NCBI GenBank assembly: GCA_019695095.1
Contig: JAIBAQ010000022.1
Span: forward strand, 1-48,220
Direction of reading: 5' to 3'
Origin: Candidatus Hydrogenedentota bacterium
Lineage (GTDB): Bacteria > Hydrogenedentota > Hydrogenedentia > Hydrogenedentales > SLHB01
DNA length: 48,220 bases
How positions within the stretch are numbered: position 1 is the first letter of the stretch; each line of letters begins with the position of its first letter. The notes beneath the pieces were generated by a model, which saw only the letters and a program-made list of their open reading frames with translations, was not told where the DNA came from and ran no database searches. Made by a program: the position numbers and the translations under genes. This document shows, in pieces, positions 33,088-47,801 of this stretch.

Positions 33088-35421
33088 TCAGATTACTACG
33101 CAGTCGGCGTTTGCCCGGCTCGAAAGATAATCGTGAATGGCCTTGGCCGCGCGTTTTCCGGCGCCCATGGCCTCGATTACCGTCGCAGCCCCGGTCACGA
33201 TATCGCCCCCAGCATACACGCCGGGCAGGTTGGTCGCCCCCGAAACCGGATCGGCAACAATATTTCCCCACTTGTTGAGCTGGATACCCTTCGTAGCGCC
33301 CGTCAGCAGAGGATTCGCGCGAGACCCCAGGGCCGGTATCACCATGTCGCAGGGAATCTGGAATTCGCTTCCCGCGACCGGGATTGGCCTGCGGCGGCCC
33401 GACGCGTCCGGCTCGCCAAGCGACATTCGGATGCACTCCATCGCACACACGCGGCCTTGATCGTCGCCCACCAACGAAACCGGCGCGGCAAGCAGATGGA
33501 AGACGACTCCTTCTTCGCGCGCATGTTCGACTTCTTCCGCGCGCGCGGGTATCTCCAACTCCGAACGGCGGTAAACGATGGAGACGGTCTTCGCGCCCAG
33601 GCGCACCGCGACCCGCGCCGCATCCATGGCGACGTTGCCCGCGCCTACGACTGCCACGCGCTGACCAACAAACACCGGGGTTTGGTACTCGCCAAACCGA
33701 TATGCCTTCATCAGGTTCACTCGCGTAAGGAACTCGTTGGCGCTGTACACACCGACCAGATTCTCGCCGGGAATGTCCATGAACACGGGCGCGCCCGCGC
33801 CCACGCCAATGAACACCGCACTGAATCCGCTCTCGAATAGAGACTCAATGGTGAGGACCTTGCCGATCACCATGTTCAACTCGATCTGAACGCCGAGGCT
33901 CTTGATGTAATCGACCTCGCGGTCGACGATGGCCTTGGGCAGACGAAACTCGGGTATGCCGTAGCGAAGCACGCCGCCCGTGTCGTGGAACGCTTCGTAA
34001 ATCGTGACGTTGTAGCCCAGTCGCGCGAGATCGCCCGCGCAGGTCAGCCCTCCGGGACCGCACCCGATAACGGCGACCTTCTGTCCTCGTGGTTTCACGT
34101 GGAAGGGCTGCGGCGGCACGTGTTCGGCTTCCCAATCCGCGATGAATCGTTCCAGGGAACCGATTGCAACGGGCCGTTCCGATTTACCCACGACGCACCG
34201 TTGTTCGCACTGCTTTTCTTGCGGACAAACGCGGCCGCACACAGCGGGCAGGTTGTTCTTCTCTTTGATGATACGCGCGGCAAGGGGCAGATCGCCTTTG
34301 ACGATGGCCTGAATAAACGCGCGGATATCGACCTCGACGGGGCATCCTTCGATGCATGCGGCGCGTTCGCAGCCGCGGCAGCGCAGGGCCTCGGCAAGCG
34401 CCTCCTCGGGCGTGTACGCCCGCTTCACCTCTTCGAACGTCGTGCGATGCTTGATGAGTTCGCCGATGGATTGCAGCACGCTCAAGGCCGCCGATTCTTC
34501 GAAGTACTTGGAGTAATGCTTCTGGTTTCGCGACTCAAGCGCCGCGACCATTTCCTGGATGCTTTCCTCGAATCGGCATGCGTGGCCGTCAATCGGCACT
34601 CTCGCGCGGCCTTCCAGGGCGCTCGCCTCTTGGGTCTTATACGTGCGCTGGCGTATCGTCAATTCGTCGAAATCGACGATAGCGCCGTCAAACTCCGGGC
34701 CGTCGACGCAGGCGTATTTCACCTCGCCGCCCACCGTGACGCGGCATCCGCCGCACATACCGGTCCCGTCCACCATAACGGGGTTCAGGCTGACGACGAC
34801 GGGGAGTCCGTGGCGTTTGCAGCACTCGGTTACCGCCTTCATGTGCGGCACCGGTCCGATGGCAATCACTTCATCGATGCGCTCGCCCGCCTTGACCAAA
34901 TCGTCCAGCACCTGCGCGGCATAGCCCTTCTGCCCGGACGAACCGTCGTCCGTGGTGACGATTACGCGGTCGCTTACGGCGGCCGCCTTGTCCTGCCAGA
35001 AGAGAAGCGAGGCATTGCGCGCGCCGAGAATCGAGATGACGCGATTGCCCGCGCTGTGATGCGCCTTCATCTGGGGAAACATGGGCGCGAGACCGAGACC
35101 CCCGCACACGCAGCAGATGGTCTTGCCGGGGCCGTGAATGTCCCGGTCTTTGCCGAGTGGCCCAACGACGTCTATGTAGTGTTGGCCAACCTCAAAAGCG
35201 GCCAGGTTTTTCGTACCCAGTCCGATTTCCTGCATGACTAGCGTGATGGTGCCTTCATCGGGATTGGAGTCGGCAATCGTGAGCGGGATGCGCTCGCCAA
35301 ACTCGTCGCCGCGCACCAATACGAAATGACCCGGCCGGGCCGCGCGCGCAATTAACGGCGCGCGAACCTCCACCTCAACGATTTGCTCAGATAGCCGCCG
35401 TTTTGCAGTCAGAGTGAACAT
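33088..35421 (-). CDS. fused NfnA-NfnB type NAD(P)H oxidoreductase (GltD-like)
   Basis: 777 residues in one chain. The N-terminal part (1-260) is ferredoxin-NADP reductase/NfnA-like: FAD region 'RPGHFVLVRGDEFGERIPLTI', NAD region 'CCVCGGLGLAPM', and a [2Fe-2S] site Asp218..Cys223-x2-Cys226..Cys238. The C-terminal part is GltD/NfnB-like: Cys348, 351, 356, 360 and 395, 399, 405, 409 for two [4Fe-4S] clusters, FAD motif 'VIGCGPGGL', NADPH motif 'VVGAGNVAMD' and 'VYAGGDIVTGAATV'. Nfn couples NADH, NADPH and ferredoxin by electron bifurcation. ATG 35421 has GGGAG about nine bases upstream; the frame open to 35526 is rejected. It follows guaA by 153 bases. Confidence 0.9.
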   Translation of the reverse strand: MFTLTAKRRLSEQIVEVEVRAPLIARAARPGHFVLVRGDEFGERIPLTIADSNPDEGTITLVMQEIGLGTKNLAAFEVGQHYIDVVGPLGKDRDIHGPGKTICCVCGGLGLAPMFPQMKAHHSAGNRVISILGARNASLLFWQDKAAAVSDRVIVTTDDGSSGQKGYAAQVLDDLVKAGERIDEVIAIGPVPHMKAVTECCKRHGLPVVVSLNPVMVDGTGMCGGCRVTVGGEVKYACVDGPEFDGAIVDFDELTIRQRTYKTQEASALEGRARVPIDGHACRFEESIQEMVAALESRNQKHYSKYFEESAALSVLQSIGELIKHRTTFEEVKRAYTPEEALAEALRCRGCERAACIEGCPVEVDIRAFIQAIVKGDLPLAARIIKEKNNLPAVCGRVCPQEKQCEQRCVVGKSERPVAIGSLERFIADWEAEHVPPQPFHVKPRGQKVAVIGCGPGGLTCAGDLARLGYNVTIYEAFHDTGGVLRYGIPEFRLPKAIVDREVDYIKSLGVQIELNMVIGKVLTIESLFESGFSAVFIGVGAGAPVFMDIPGENLVGVYSANEFLTRVNLMKAYRFGEYQTPVFVGQRVAVVGAGNVAMDAARVAVRLGAKTVSIVYRRSELEIPARAEEVEHAREEGVVFHLLAAPVSLVGDDQGRVCAMECIRMSLGEPDASGRRRPIPVAGSEFQIPCDMVIPALGSRANPLLTGATKGIQLNKWGNIVADPVSGATNLPGVYAGGDIVTGAATVIEAMGAGKRAAKAIHDYLSSRANADCVVI

Positions 35422-35546
35422 TCGACTTGCTCCCAAACTTGGGTGGGCACTGCTTTCATCCCCATTGGAAAATGAATTCTCCGCCGCTTGGCCACCTGCA
35501 AACGGCCAAGCCACGGTTGACGCCACGCGCAGATACTTCGCGCATC

Positions 35547-39455: not shown

Positions 39456-39563
39456 GAGCGCTGCAAGCGCGAAATACGCTAGCCTGGGGTTTCGATTCGC
39501 GTCACCGACGCGAATCGAAACCCCAGGTACCAGCCCCCCACCCAACGTGAGCCCTGTAAGGGC
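39456..39563 (+). repeat. solo copy of the REP-like hairpin element
   Basis: The order of parts is the same as in the transposase flanks: GAGCGCTGCAAGCGCGAAATAC, then a perfect 21-bp stem with three-base loop (39483-39527, CCTGGGGTTTCGATTCGCGTC and its complement), then a spacer and GCCCTGTAAGGGC (39551-39563). No transposase is next to it. Confidence 0.85.
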
Positions 39564-42143: not shown

Positions 42144-45100
42144 ATGAACTTTCTACAGACCCTTCGCGAACAGATCGTTGTGATTGACGGCGCCATGGGC
42201 ACCCAGGTGCAAAACCTTGCCCTCACGGACGAGGACTACGGCGGCGTCGAATTCCGCATGCTCCCGGACATCCTGGTCTTCTCTCATCCCGAGGCGATCC
42301 GGGACATCCATCTCAGCTACTTCAAGGCGGGGGCAAACGCGGTCGAGACCAACACCTTCGGCGCGTCGCCCTACCGGCTCTGCGAATACGACTTTAGCCG
42401 TCTCAGTCTGGAGCGGTTCGCGAAAGTGCCCTACGGTATCGAACTTCGCCGGCTTTCGTACGACGAATTTGCCTACTACCTGAGCCGGCGGGCAGCGGAG
42501 GTCGCGTGCGAGGCGCGCGAGGTCTACCGCAAGGACCCTGCCTATGACAACCGTCCGCTTTTCATCCTGGGGTCCATCGGCCCCTCCAATCGGGTGCTTT
42601 CCAGTACCGACGCCAACCTGAAACTGTCGACGTTCGATGCGATGGTCGACAACTTCTACCACCAAGTGAAAGGGTTGGTCGAAGGCGGGGTGGACGTACT
42701 GCTCTACGAGACGCAGCAGGACATCCTCGAACTGAAGGCGGCGGTGTTCGGCGGATTGAAAGCCATGCGTGAGTTGGGTAAGCGCTTGCCCATCATGGCC
42801 CAGGTCACCGTCGACCAGTTCTCGAAGATGCAGATTTTCAATACGGACATCCATGCCGCGCTGGTCACGTTGCAGGGTATTGGGATCGACACGTTCGGTA
42901 TCAATTGCAGCATCGGCCCGGACCTCATGGCCAAGACGGCCGAGAAGCTTGGCCGCTATTCGTGCCTGCCGATCTCGATTATTCCCAATGCGGGGTTGCC
43001 CGTATCTGAAGACGGCCGCACGGTGTTCAAGTTCAAGCCCGACAAGATGGCGGAGTATCTCGACACGTTCGTGCGCGAATACGGCGTGAATATTGTGGGC
43101 GGGTGTTGCGGGACCACGCCCGACCACATTCGCGCTATCGCGGAGACGATGCGCGGCCGCAAACCCGTGGCGCGGACGCGCGAGAACGGTCTCTACGTGT
43201 CCGGGCCTCAAGAAGCGGTGCTTCTCGATAGCAGCAAGACGTTGATCATGATCGGCGAACGGCTCAACGTGCGCGGTTCGATTAAGGTGCGGCAAGCCGT
43301 TGAACACGGCGGCCCCATTGATCACGCGTCATTGGAAGAAGTCGTCGATGAACAAGTGCGCGGCCTTGGCGTCAAGGTCATCGACGTGTGCATGGACTCC
43401 AACGTCGTGGACACCACCACGGCGCTGAAGGAGGTCGTGCACAAGCAAACCACCGACTTCTCGGGGGCCATGTGCCTCGACTCGTTTGCCGTGGACGCGC
43501 TGGCCGAGGCAATCAAAGTCTATCCGGGCAGGCCCATCATCAACTCCATGTCCATGGAAGAAGTGGCCGACGGGGTAACCAAGGTCGATGCCGTTGTCGA
43601 GGCAACGAAAGACCATTGGCCGATGTACATCGGGCTCGCGGCGGGACCGAAAGGACCCGGCGCGACCGCCGAAGAGAAGACCGACCTTGCGCGGCAGATT
43701 GTTGAGCGCGCCGGCGCGCATGGCGTGACGCCCGATCAGATCTTCATTGACATGAACGTGTTTCCGCTCGGCTCGGAGTCGGAAGAAGGGATGAACTTCG
43801 CCGTGGAATCGTTGAACGCGATTCCGCAGATCAAAGCGATTCACCCGGATCTACGGACCGTGTGCGGCGTCGGCAACCTGACTAACGGTCTCGCGAAGAA
43901 ACCGTACATGCGCAAGGTGTTGACCTCGGTGTGGCTGGATGAAGCGCGCAAGCGCGGTCTGGACGCGGCGATCATCAACCCGAACCACTACGTTTTCGTG
44001 AAGGATCTCGATCCGCGCGATTACGACCTTGCGTTGAAAGTCATCCTCGAACACGACATGAACGCATTCGAGGAATTGGAGACGATTGCCGAGCAGAAGA
44101 AGGGCCTGGAGGTCGTCAAGCGCACGAGCTATGCCGATCTCGACGTGGAGACGGCCATCTGCGAGAAGATCAAAGACGGTCACAAGGAGCGCGAGCACGG
44201 CAACATTGAAGTCGGCGGGCATCACTATAAATACGCCGACCGAATCGTGCTTCAAGTGGCGGAGGTCATCAAGCACCGCGAACCGCTTGAGTTTGTGAAC
44301 ACGCATCTCATGCGCGCCATGAACGAACTGGGCGATGGGTTTGCGCGCGGCGAGGTGTCGCTGCCGCATCTGCTGAAGTCCGCCGACGTCATGAAGCAGG
44401 TGATGGGTTTCCTGGAAGAGTACATGCGGATTTCCTCGGGAGTCGACGTCCACGCGAAGATCGAATACAAGGGGACGATCGTGCTGGGCACGGTGTATCA
44501 AGATGTACACTCGATCGGCAAAGACCTTGCGAAGACCTTGTTTGAGAACTACGGTTACCGCGTAATCGACTTGGGCGTGATGACGCCGCTTCAGGGCTAC
44601 ATCGACGCGGCGAAAGAGCACAAGGCCGACGCTATTGGCATGTCGGCGCTGCTGGTGCAAACGTCCAATCATATGATCACGGTTTCGAAGATGATGGCCG
44701 AGCAAGGGCTCTCGCATCTGCCCGTGTTAATCGGCGGCGCGCCCGTGAACGATCGGCATGCCGCGTATGTCGCGATGGCGGGCGCCTCGGACACGGCGGC
44801 GATGCGATCGAACGTCTTCTACTGCCCGACGGCGATGGATGGCGTGAACATTATGAATGCGCTGCGCGCGCAGAAAGACACGTCGGCATACCTCACGCAG
44901 AATCTGCAGAAGCTGCAACGAAACTTCGAGCGCGCGGAGAAGAAGGCGCTGGAAGAGGAAGAGTTGCTGAAGACGTTGCCGCGGCGCACGGTGTCGTTCG
45001 CGGCGCACCGCATTCCCGATGATCCCTGGTTTGCCTATGACGTCTTGAAATTCGATTTGCGAGACTTCCGCGCTCACATCGATACGCGCACGTTGTTTGC

Positions 45101-45764
45101 GCTCAACTGGAAATTTGGCGGCTCCGCGTCGCGATTGAAGCAAGGCGAGACGCCGGAGAAGTTGAACGCGCTGTTCAACGAATGGATCGAAAAGGCGAGC
45201 GCCGACGATTGGGTGCAGCCGATGGCCATTTGCGGCGTGTATCCGTGCCAATCGGATGGAAGCGAAGTCATTGTCTACGATCCCGAAGACACAAGCCGGA
45301 TCGTATGCCGGTTCGGTTTTCCTCTTGTGATCGGCGCGGGCAAGAAAGACACGGTCTGCGCGGCTCAGTACTTCCATCCCAAGAATTCGGGACAATTCGA
45401 CGCCATTGGCGTTCAGATTTCCACCAGCGGGCCGCACGTGGATTATCACATCAACAAGTTTCGCGAGGCGGGCGATTCGGAGTCCACGCTCTACCTGCAA
45501 GGGTTGTCGGATCGGGTGGCCGAGGACCTCGCCGACTACGTGCATGGGAAAATGCGCGCGCGTCTTGGCTTCGACGCGAAACACGGCATCCGCTGGTCGC
45601 CGGGTTATCCCGCGATGGCAGACACCAAGTACAACAGGACGATTCTCGAGACACTGCACGCGCAGGAACTCATCGGTGTTCGTATCACGGAGGCGGGTGA
45701 GTTTTCGCCAACCGGAACAACGGCCGCGGTCGTGTGCTTCCATCCTGACGCGCGCTACACGTAA
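42144..45764 (+). CDS. metH: cobalamin-dependent methionine synthase
   Basis: 1206 residues, complete four-module enzyme. The homocysteine domain has zinc ligands Cys255, Cys321, Cys322 ('NCSIGPD', 'GGCCGTT'). The pterin domain begins 'IMIGERLNVRGS'. The cobalamin module has Asp787-x-His789-x-x-Gly in 'DVHSIGKD', the His that replaces the lower base. The C-terminal reactivation domain ends with 'GIRWSPGYPAMAD', the AdoMet site. It makes methionine and tetrahydrofolate. Residues about 82-115 are an insertion relative to the E. coli enzyme, and the pterin domain is divergent. No cobalamin or SAM riboswitch is visible upstream. Two ferredoxin genes follow closely. Confidence 0.95.
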   Translation: MNFLQTLREQIVVIDGAMGTQVQNLALTDEDYGGVEFRMLPDILVFSHPEAIRDIHLSYFKAGANAVETNTFGASPYRLCEYDFSRLSLERFAKVPYGIELRRLSYDEFAYYLSRRAAEVACEAREVYRKDPAYDNRPLFILGSIGPSNRVLSSTDANLKLSTFDAMVDNFYHQVKGLVEGGVDVLLYETQQDILELKAAVFGGLKAMRELGKRLPIMAQVTVDQFSKMQIFNTDIHAALVTLQGIGIDTFGINCSIGPDLMAKTAEKLGRYSCLPISIIPNAGLPVSEDGRTVFKFKPDKMAEYLDTFVREYGVNIVGGCCGTTPDHIRAIAETMRGRKPVARTRENGLYVSGPQEAVLLDSSKTLIMIGERLNVRGSIKVRQAVEHGGPIDHASLEEVVDEQVRGLGVKVIDVCMDSNVVDTTTALKEVVHKQTTDFSGAMCLDSFAVDALAEAIKVYPGRPIINSMSMEEVADGVTKVDAVVEATKDHWPMYIGLAAGPKGPGATAEEKTDLARQIVERAGAHGVTPDQIFIDMNVFPLGSESEEGMNFAVESLNAIPQIKAIHPDLRTVCGVGNLTNGLAKKPYMRKVLTSVWLDEARKRGLDAAIINPNHYVFVKDLDPRDYDLALKVILEHDMNAFEELETIAEQKKGLEVVKRTSYADLDVETAICEKIKDGHKEREHGNIEVGGHHYKYADRIVLQVAEVIKHREPLEFVNTHLMRAMNELGDGFARGEVSLPHLLKSADVMKQVMGFLEEYMRISSGVDVHAKIEYKGTIVLGTVYQDVHSIGKDLAKTLFENYGYRVIDLGVMTPLQGYIDAAKEHKADAIGMSALLVQTSNHMITVSKMMAEQGLSHLPVLIGGAPVNDRHAAYVAMAGASDTAAMRSNVFYCPTAMDGVNIMNALRAQKDTSAYLTQNLQKLQRNFERAEKKALEEEELLKTLPRRTVSFAAHRIPDDPWFAYDVLKFDLRDFRAHIDTRTLFALNWKFGGSASRLKQGETPEKLNALFNEWIEKASADDWVQPMAICGVYPCQSDGSEVIVYDPEDTSRIVCRFGFPLVIGAGKKDTVCAAQYFHPKNSGQFDAIGVQISTSGPHVDYHINKFREAGDSESTLYLQGLSDRVAEDLADYVHGKMRARLGFDAKHGIRWSPGYPAMADTKYNRTILETLHAQELIGVRITEAGEFSPTGTTAAVVCFHPDARYT

Positions 45765-45795
45765 TACGGTTGAAGCGGGGTATTGGAGACCGGGA

Positions 45796-46617
45796 GTGAA
45801 GAGTAAGCAAAACCCATATCGCCATCTTATCCTTGTGTGCACGGGAGATTCGTGTGCCGACAAGAAGGCCAAGAAGTTGCGCGACGAGATTCGCGAGTTG
45901 CTGGAAGAGCGTGGTCTGGACGACGAGGTCCGCTGCTCGCGCACGGACTGTCTCGGGAAGTGCGGCGACGGGCCCAACGTTGTGGTGTCGCCGGGAGACC
46001 GCTGGTTCAAAGGCGTGAAGCCCAAGGACGCGAAAGAACTCCTGGACGCCGTGCTTCATGGGACGGAGAAGCACCGAACGATGGACTCGAATACCCTGGG
46101 AGCCGCTTATCTCGAATCGATCGTGTATCGCTTCGAAGGCGCGAAGGAACTCGGCGACAAGGCTTTGGCGCAGACTTCGGACGACGACCTGACTTGGCGT
46201 CCGGATGAGGAGTCCAATTCGATAGCCGTGATTGTGCAGCATTTGCACGGCAACATGCTGTCGCGATGGACCGATTTTCTGACAACGGACGGCGAAAAAC
46301 CCACGAGAAACCGCGATGGCGAATTCGTCGAACCGGAGTCGGCCACGCGCTCGGCAATCCTTGCGAAATGGGAGCAAGGCTGGGCGTGCATGCTGAGCAC
46401 TTTGCGAGCGTTGAAGCCCGACGATTTGCTCAAGGACGTGACCATTCGAGGACAGAAGCTCACGGTGCTCGACGCGATCCAGCGACAGTTGGCCCACGTG
46501 CCGTATCATGTCGGACAGATTGTGTACTTGGCGCGCATGCGCAAGGGAGCGGAGTGGCAGACGTTGTCTATTGCGCGCGGGCAATCCGGGCAATACGTAC
46601 CGCAGAAGAGGGACTGA
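45796..46617 (+). CDS. [2Fe-2S] thioredoxin-like ferredoxin fused to DUF1572 (DinB-like)
   Basis: 273 residues. N-terminal 95 residues: thioredoxin-like ferredoxin with Cys15-x4-Cys20 and Cys52-x3-Cys56, the NuoE-like arrangement, and 'CLGKCGDGPNVVV'. From about 100 on: DUF1572 of the DinB/YfiT four-helix group, 'YLESIVYRFEGAKELGDKAL', 'VIVQHLHGNMLSRW' (His149/His151) and 'LAHVPYHVGQIVYLARM' (His234/His238), likely metal ligands. DUF1572 is mostly seen alone. GTG start with GGAG eight bases upstream, 31 bases after metH; the open frame further upstream is a metH shadow. Confidence 0.88.
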   Translation: MKSKQNPYRHLILVCTGDSCADKKAKKLRDEIRELLEERGLDDEVRCSRTDCLGKCGDGPNVVVSPGDRWFKGVKPKDAKELLDAVLHGTEKHRTMDSNTLGAAYLESIVYRFEGAKELGDKALAQTSDDDLTWRPDEESNSIAVIVQHLHGNMLSRWTDFLTTDGEKPTRNRDGEFVEPESATRSAILAKWEQGWACMLSTLRALKPDDLLKDVTIRGQKLTVLDAIQRQLAHVPYHVGQIVYLARMRKGAEWQTLSIARGQSGQYVPQKRD

Positions 46618-46625
46618 GCGGCTCC

Positions 46626-46946
46626 ATGCAAACCAACGCGCTTCCGCATGAGAAGATCATCTTTGTGTGCACCAACGTACGCGAACCGGGCGAACGCGTA
46701 TGCTGCGCGGGAGCCGGCGGTTGCGAACTGCGCGACAAGCTCAAAGCGATGGTCAAGGCCCGCCAACTGCGGTCCAAAGTCCGCGTGAGCCAGTCCGGCT
46801 GCATGGACAAATGCGAAGACGGCCCCAACATCATGATCTTTCCCGACAACGTATGGTTGTCAGGCGTACACGAATCCGATCTCAACGCGATTGTTGATGC
46901 GGTCGCGCGCGCCGTCGAAACCGGTGAGCCGCTCGGGCTGGGCTGA
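46626..46946 (+). CDS. [2Fe-2S] thioredoxin-like ferredoxin
   Basis: 106 residues, a stand-alone protein of the same superfamily as the preceding N-terminal domain. Cys15 ('FVCTNVRE'), Cys26/27 ('RVCCAG'), Cys33, then Cys59 and Cys63 in 'SGCMDKCEDGPN', and 'VWLSG' near the end. The C-x11-C...C-x3-C spacing is that of Aquifex-type thioredoxin-like ferredoxin. Starts eight bases after the fusion gene (ATG; GGGACTG upstream), so it is in the same transcript. It may carry electrons to a nearby enzyme; metH is the obvious candidate (inference). Confidence 0.9.
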   Translation: MQTNALPHEKIIFVCTNVREPGERVCCAGAGGCELRDKLKAMVKARQLRSKVRVSQSGCMDKCEDGPNIMIFPDNVWLSGVHESDLNAIVDAVARAVETGEPLGLG

Positions 46947-46982: not shown

Positions 46983-47801
46983 CTACGCTACGACTTCCAC
47001 GTATTCCGTGGTCACGCTGTCCTTATCCAGGTGGAAGAGCCGGAATCCTTTTGACGTCGTACCGTCGTGGTTGTCGCGCGTGGAGGAACAGCACGCGGTG
47101 GTCGTGAACAGAATACCGTCGCGGGTCTCTTCCTGATTGCCGTGGAAATGGCCTGAAGCCACGAGCTTGAGGTTGTGTTCCGAAAATAAGCCGAGGACTT
47201 CGTCGGCGTTCTGCACGCGATAGGCTTTTGTATTCGGGTTGAAGGGGTGATGCGTGAAAAGCGCAATCGGGCGTTTGCCGTTCGTGTGTTTGAGCTGCTT
47301 TTTGAGCCAGTCAATCTGATCCGGGCGGATAGCCACGTCGGACTTGTTTTCGTTGCACGAATCGATGCCGATGAACAGCCAGCCCTCGTCTTCTTGCCTA
47401 TGGTCGGGTTCTCCGAAGAACTTCCGGTAGTTGTTCAGAATATCCTTGGCGCCCATATTGACATCGTGATTGCCGGGAATAGCGAACCACGGTTTCTCCA
47501 GGCGGCTGAGGGCATCGTAAGCCAAGCTCAATTCGCCAAGTTGGCCGTCGGAGGCGAGATCGCCGAGCGCGACGGTGAACCGCACCTTGTCCGTGGCGTT
47601 GATCATCTCCGCGGCACGCACAACGATGCTGATGCTTCGCGAATCCAGCACATGGATATCGTTGATTGCCGCAAAGGTGACGCGGCCCGGGCCGCCCGGC
47701 ACCAAGTCTACATCGGTAATCTTGTCGAGGCCGGTGCGCGCGCATCCGGCAAGCCCTGCCGCACCTACCAGCCCGATAAACTGTCTGCGCGTAAGTTTCA
47801 T
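46983..47801 (-). CDS. calcineurin-like metallophosphoesterase, lipoprotein
   Basis: 272 residues. The N-terminus 'MKLTRRQFIGLVGAAGLAGC' has a twin-arginine motif and lipobox (Cys20), so export through Tat and lipidation are likely. The metallophosphoesterase motifs are in order: 'INDIHVLD' (D-x-H), 'GDLASDG', 'GNHDV', 'THHPF' and 'GHFHGN', all ligands present. It belongs to the CpdA/purple acid phosphatase-like group; a phosphodiester or phosphomonoester is the likely substrate. GGAG precedes ATG 47801; the frame open up to 48176 is not coding. Convergent with the ferredoxin gene. Confidence 0.9.
   Translation of the reverse strand: MKLTRRQFIGLVGAAGLAGCARTGLDKITDVDLVPGGPGRVTFAAINDIHVLDSRSISIVVRAAEMINATDKVRFTVALGDLASDGQLGELSLAYDALSRLEKPWFAIPGNHDVNMGAKDILNNYRKFFGEPDHRQEDEGWLFIGIDSCNENKSDVAIRPDQIDWLKKQLKHTNGKRPIALFTHHPFNPNTKAYRVQNADEVLGLFSEHNLKLVASGHFHGNQEETRDGILFTTTACCSSTRDNHDGTTSKGFRLFHLDKDSVTTEYVEVVA

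Follow-up and report, generated by a model that had tools for sequence, protein, structure and literature searches.

A thioredoxin-like [2Fe-2S] ferredoxin gene behind metH in one family of Hydrogenedentota, and its possible part in methionine synthase reactivation

In many bacteria MetH includes a reactivation domain, and the enzyme draws on AdoMet to bring its cobalamin back to the active state. In Hydrogenedentota the identity of the reductant becomes a question because 21 of the 37 good metH-bearing genomes (G000, the subject of this study, and 20 others) lack a clear PF00258 flavodoxin, counted at E<=1e-9 with frames of about 400 aa left out. The potential of the Co(II)/Co(I) couple is lower than those of ferredoxin and flavodoxin (PMC6739815), so that reduction has to be coupled to AdoMet or ATP. 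Our literature search on ferredoxin-driven MetH reactivation found no report among the papers available to us. Here we ask whether two ferredoxin genes that follow metH in one draft genome, and that a sequence-only reading of the locus took to supply or relay electrons to MetH, could have this role.

The window is a stretch of 48,220 nucleotides, contig C22 of the 6.77 Mb draft genome (G000, 95% complete) of an uncultured Hydrogenedentota bacterium; its features are collected in Table 1. The sequence-only reading had called for a check for flavodoxin, and a PF00258 search of this draft genome gave no match. As that reading described, the fdA-DUF1572 frame (45796-46617, 273 aa, GTG start at 45796) begins 31 bases after metH, and fdB (start ATG 46626) begins a further 8 bases on, all three on the same strand. 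From this layout we infer an operon-like cluster that would be co-transcribed. Among orthologues dN/dS is about 0.03-0.3, which indicates purifying selection and thus real genes. Promoters and terminators at the locus show no excess over shuffled sequence, and a riboswitch search upstream of metH found none; a weak Acido-Lenti-1 RNA match (24.2 bits, below the gathering score of 37) lies on the minus strand at 39457-39488. The Nfn-like enzyme that had been placed 7-9 kb away is indeed there, 6.6-9 kb from metH on the opposite strand, with FAD/NAD-binding NfnA-like and NfnB-like parts in a single chain. A metallophosphoesterase similar to the window's also follows metH in G065 (genus g18).

Table 1. 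Features of the metH locus in the window, and FMN_red genes found after metH in family f3.
Feature	Position	Strand	Description	Basis
metH	42144-45764	+	cobalamin-dependent methionine synthase, 1206 aa, C-terminal AdoMet/reactivation domain included	Pfam, structure matches
fdA	45796-46080	+	thioredoxin-like [2Fe-2S] ferredoxin domain	PF01257, structures, invariant Cys
DUF1572 domain (DinB/YfiT fold)	46081-46617	+	continuous with fdA here; relatives have it as a gene of its own	PF07609
fdB	46626-46946	+	second thioredoxin-like [2Fe-2S] ferredoxin	sequence match to 1f37
metallophosphoesterase	46983-47801	-	closes cluster on opposite strand	PF00149
fused Nfn-like/GltD-type oxidoreductase	33088-35526	-	outside metH cluster	
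f3 FMN_red	G007:C181:25999-26568		after metH	
f3 FMN_red	G008:C67:26481-27047		after metH	
f3 FMN_red	G009:C321:27071-27637		after metH	
f3 FMN_red	G013:C8:80501-81073		after metH	
f3 FMN_red	G014:C99:23479-24051		after metH	
f3 FMN_red	G018:C293:7521-8090		after metH	

All five MetH Pfam domains (S-methyl_trans, Pterin_bind, B12-binding_2, B12-binding and Met_synt_B12, the last being PF02965 at 2.4e-28) score over their cut-offs, so the earlier claim of a complete reactivation domain stands: one chain holds the homocysteine, folate, cap, B12 and reactivation domains. The closest solved structures are other MetH (8ssc, 8g3h), and the AdoMet motif GIRxxPGYPA (RxxxGYPA) aligns with the 1msk/3bul reactivation domains; a DxHxxG cobalamin motif and Zn-type cysteines (NCS, GGCCG) can also be read in the sequence. 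With its full length covered, the protein reaches 752.8 bits against the TIGR02082 equivalog cut-off of 1010.85, which is a naming threshold rather than a catalytic feature. A score below that cut-off together with the full domain set leads us to conclude that this is a divergent yet complete MetH, and its nearest MetH records are mostly from Candidatus Hydrogenedentota. It shares the five-domain build, AdoMet/reactivation domain included, with the MetH of the E. coli flavodoxin/flavodoxin reductase system; unlike there, a PF00258 match is lacking in the draft genome, thioredoxin-like [2Fe-2S] ferredoxins follow metH, and MetH falls below the TIGR02082 cut-off.

Both small proteins fit the cysteine pattern that we tested for thioredoxin-like [2Fe-2S] ferredoxins (C-x4..12-C-x29..34-C-x3-C), and the four cluster cysteines are invariant in fdA and fdB types alike. 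In fdA they are Cys15, 20, 52 and 56 (C-x4-C-x31-C-x3-C); the domain makes up the first ~95 residues of the 273-aa protein, exceeds the PF01257 cut-off (8e-8) and matches HydB/NuoE-type ferredoxins as well as the structures 1f37 and 5abr. The fdB cysteines are Cys15, 27, 59 and 63 (C-x11-C-x31-C-x3-C), and this protein matches the Aquifex thioredoxin-like [2Fe-2S] ferredoxin 1f37 (6e-10) with no PF01257 match. Cysteine pattern and fold thus predict that both carry a [2Fe-2S] cluster. The fold and four-Cys arrangement are those of the Aquifex aeolicus and Azotobacter FeSI ferredoxins (1f37, 5abr), whereas fdA differs from these in a shortened first loop (C-x4-C), as in the HydB-subunit ferredoxin domain, and in its link to metH.

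The DUF1572 part of the frame (PF07609, 1e-66) has His149, His234 and His238 as candidate metal-site residues. In a predicted structure of the 273-aa protein (mean pLDDT 71.6, built from only 12 sequences), the ferredoxin part matches Aquifex and Azotobacter thioredoxin-like ferredoxins, and the DUF1572 part DinB/YfiT proteins (2p1a, mycothiol S-transferase, YfiT). DUF1572 resembles the DinB-YfiT metalloproteins (PMC4520260) in its PF07609 match, its fold and its three His positions, and departs from them in standing in frame with a ferredoxin, which it does in one genome only. The fusion described from the sequence is real as a continuous frame with both domains, but it is unique to the window genome. 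Genus g9 has two separate frames, and the window's DUF1572 keeps its own ATG (46081), aligned with the N-terminus of free-standing relatives; the fusion may therefore have come about only through a single missing stop codon or an error in the draft assembly, and it carries no weight in what follows.

How far does this arrangement extend among relatives? We found metH in 61 of 68 phylum genomes, and compared the downstream sequence in the 49 genomes, from 31 genera, with at least 500 bp readable after metH. A thioredoxin-like ferredoxin stands right after metH in four genera (g1, g9, g18 and g16), all in the window's family, and there is none directly after metH in the other 27; the linkage noted in the sequence-only reading thus recurs within the family but is kept in only 4/31 genera. 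Three of these genera have a gene of the fdA type, in six genomes altogether: G000 (g1, the window genus), G052, G053 and G054 in g9 (the G054 contig starts inside metH), and G064 and G066 in g18, where G065 lacks it at this place. In g16 (G062) an fdB orthologue alone directly follows metH. DUF1572 lies downstream of metH in g1, g9 and g10: the g9 order is metH-fdA-DUF1572 with DUF1572 as its own gene, and g10 (G055) has DUF1572 directly after metH. In g5 (G047, G048) a DUF1572-fdB pair with an 11 bp gap sits remote from metH. Fragments of the cluster (metH-fdA, metH-DUF1572, metH-fdB, DUF1572-fdB) therefore recur separately in six genera of the window's family, which fits an ancestral order metH-fdA-DUF1572-fdB. 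An ancestor within this one family probably had such an order, which later came apart in most genera, and the window genome alone would keep all four parts, as the most complete surviving copy.

Outside these cases the gene after metH in the phylum is an unrelated one, for example for a PEP carboxylase, RecG, an adenylate cyclase-type protein, a PfkB kinase or transporters. In G057 and G025 (99% complete) metH is present but a clear copy of either ferredoxin is not, and metH loci from outside Hydrogenedentota (labelled Nitrospinaceae/Nitrospina and Lentisphaera) gave no fdA or fdB match in the flanks examined.

Could the gene order be a product of chance? The arrangement is missing from most genera of the phylum, which speaks for chance, but a simple Poisson calculation expects 0.01-0.02 genera with such a ferredoxin at metH, against at least two separate lineages observed, and the pieces of the cluster recur pairwise in six genera; we regard this explanation as very improbable. 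For two independent metH-ferredoxin cases the same calculation gives P of ~5e-5 to 2e-4, values that are flattering because the finding was chosen for looking striking. The MetH tree places g1 as sister to g9, with g5 next, g18 nearby and g10 and g16 more distant, and in the ferredoxin tree the fdA sequences of the window and of g9 fall together (support 95/77). On whether g18 fdA belongs to the same lineage the AU test gives p=0.255, a value that does not settle the independence of the g18 case.

Reading from gene order only, we propose, at a probability of roughly 0.4, that fdA was recruited as an electron carrier for reactivating MetH and is its physiological donor. Some reductase would feed the ferredoxin, fdA would pass electrons one at a time to the reactivation domain of MetH, and that domain would use AdoMet to capture cob(I)alamin in the form of methylcobalamin; in G000 fdA would stand in for flavodoxin. 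The intact reactivation domain and the lack of a PF00258 match in G000 and the 20 other genomes speak for this proposal. The six closest fdA copies are all at metH; fdB orthologues occur in 42 of 68 phylum genomes and adjoin metH in just two (G000 and G062). Elsewhere in the phylum fdB has no conserved neighbour, its presence shows no relation to that of flavodoxin (Fisher p=1.0), and it shows no anticorrelation with RACo. Both fdB and DUF1572 are probably either passengers or accessory proteins whose roles are wider. Several observations count against the proposed role of fdA, among them the 27 genera without such a ferredoxin after metH and the presence of RACo in the genome. Between the window and G054, fdA is 50% identical and MetH about 79%, and so much faster a divergence is odd for a tight partner; and the g18 species with fdA at metH also carry flavodoxin. 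Where fdA-like ferredoxins stand alone elsewhere in the phylum, their contexts are unrelated. The electron-supply claim of the sequence-only reading is therefore upheld in part: these are predicted redox proteins, tightly co-directional with metH, in a linkage that recurs beyond chance, but the linkage is confined to few genera, most fdB genes lie away from metH, some genomes have metH and neither ferredoxin, and the genome encodes RACo and a further reductase as other possible donors.

The same gene order can be read in another way, in which the ferredoxins and DUF1572 are a unit of their own, a DinB-fold metalloprotein served by a ferredoxin and functionally separate from MetH, and the adjacency to metH is a neighbour effect in one family. 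We take this seriously without thinking it probable. The tight g5 pair away from metH agrees with it, as do the persistence of DUF1572 beside a ferredoxin in g1 and g9, the unrelated contexts of DUF1572 beyond the window's family and the lack of a conserved fdB neighbour. However, DUF1572 alone in g10 and fdB alone in g16 stand after metH, so that the ties of these genes are not only with one another but also with metH.

A donor encoded elsewhere could also keep MetH active, either RACo, which is ATP-driven, has its own [2Fe-2S] domain and may receive electrons from fdA or fdB, or else an NAD(P)H reductase of the ferredoxin type. G000 encodes a complete RACo (C115, L143:4418-6283) with Fer2, RACo linker, middle and C-terminal ASKHA domains, as well as an NAD(P)H reductase that itself carries a 2Fe-2S domain (Fer2-FNR, at G000:C3), and RACo is present in 24 of 25 genomes of the window's family. 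Mutant fitness implicates RamA/RACo-like proteins in reactivating methionine synthases without PF02965 in Phaeobacter and Desulfovibrio (Price 2018, PMC5764234), where, as proposed here for fdA, an iron-sulphur protein donates electrons for B12 reactivation in methionine synthesis. Those activators differ from fdA and fdB, which have no ASKHA/ATP domain and are thioredoxin-like rather than plant-type, and their partner enzymes lack the PF02965 domain that the window MetH keeps (PMC5764234). RACo may, moreover, serve different corrinoid proteins, and it is absent from the six f5 genomes and from G035-G038 (f8), all with metH. We consider this explanation unlikely. No corrinoid methyltransferase is evident next to the G000 RACo. 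The f5 genomes (G022-G027) have metH, without RACo or a PF00258 flavodoxin, and mostly without fdB.

The comparison beyond the window's family brought a parallel that the sequence-only reading did not hold. In family f3 (genera g23, g25 and g28), six genomes have a gene for an FMN_red flavodoxin-fold protein 17-346 bp after metH (Table 1); this flavoprotein has a C-x2-C-G-x-C motif and is a candidate redox partner of MetH. G000 encodes four FMN_red proteins, among which an orthologue of the f3 metH-linked one is absent. The place after metH is thus taken by a ferredoxin in one family and by a flavoprotein in another, which favours a redox function of the neighbouring gene, and we regard this as the best comparative support for the idea of the sequence-only reading. 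A broader version, in which the redox partner of MetH is swapped by lineage, with a dedicated thioredoxin-like [2Fe-2S] ferredoxin replacing flavodoxin in one family and FMN_red used from the same gene position in another, seems to us doubtful. The cluster yields named candidates for MetH reduction (fdA, fdB, FMN_red and RACo) that can be compared on one purified enzyme. In one isolated case, at G003:C23:14287-15505, an fdB orthologue lies tail to tail (convergent) with a RACo gene.
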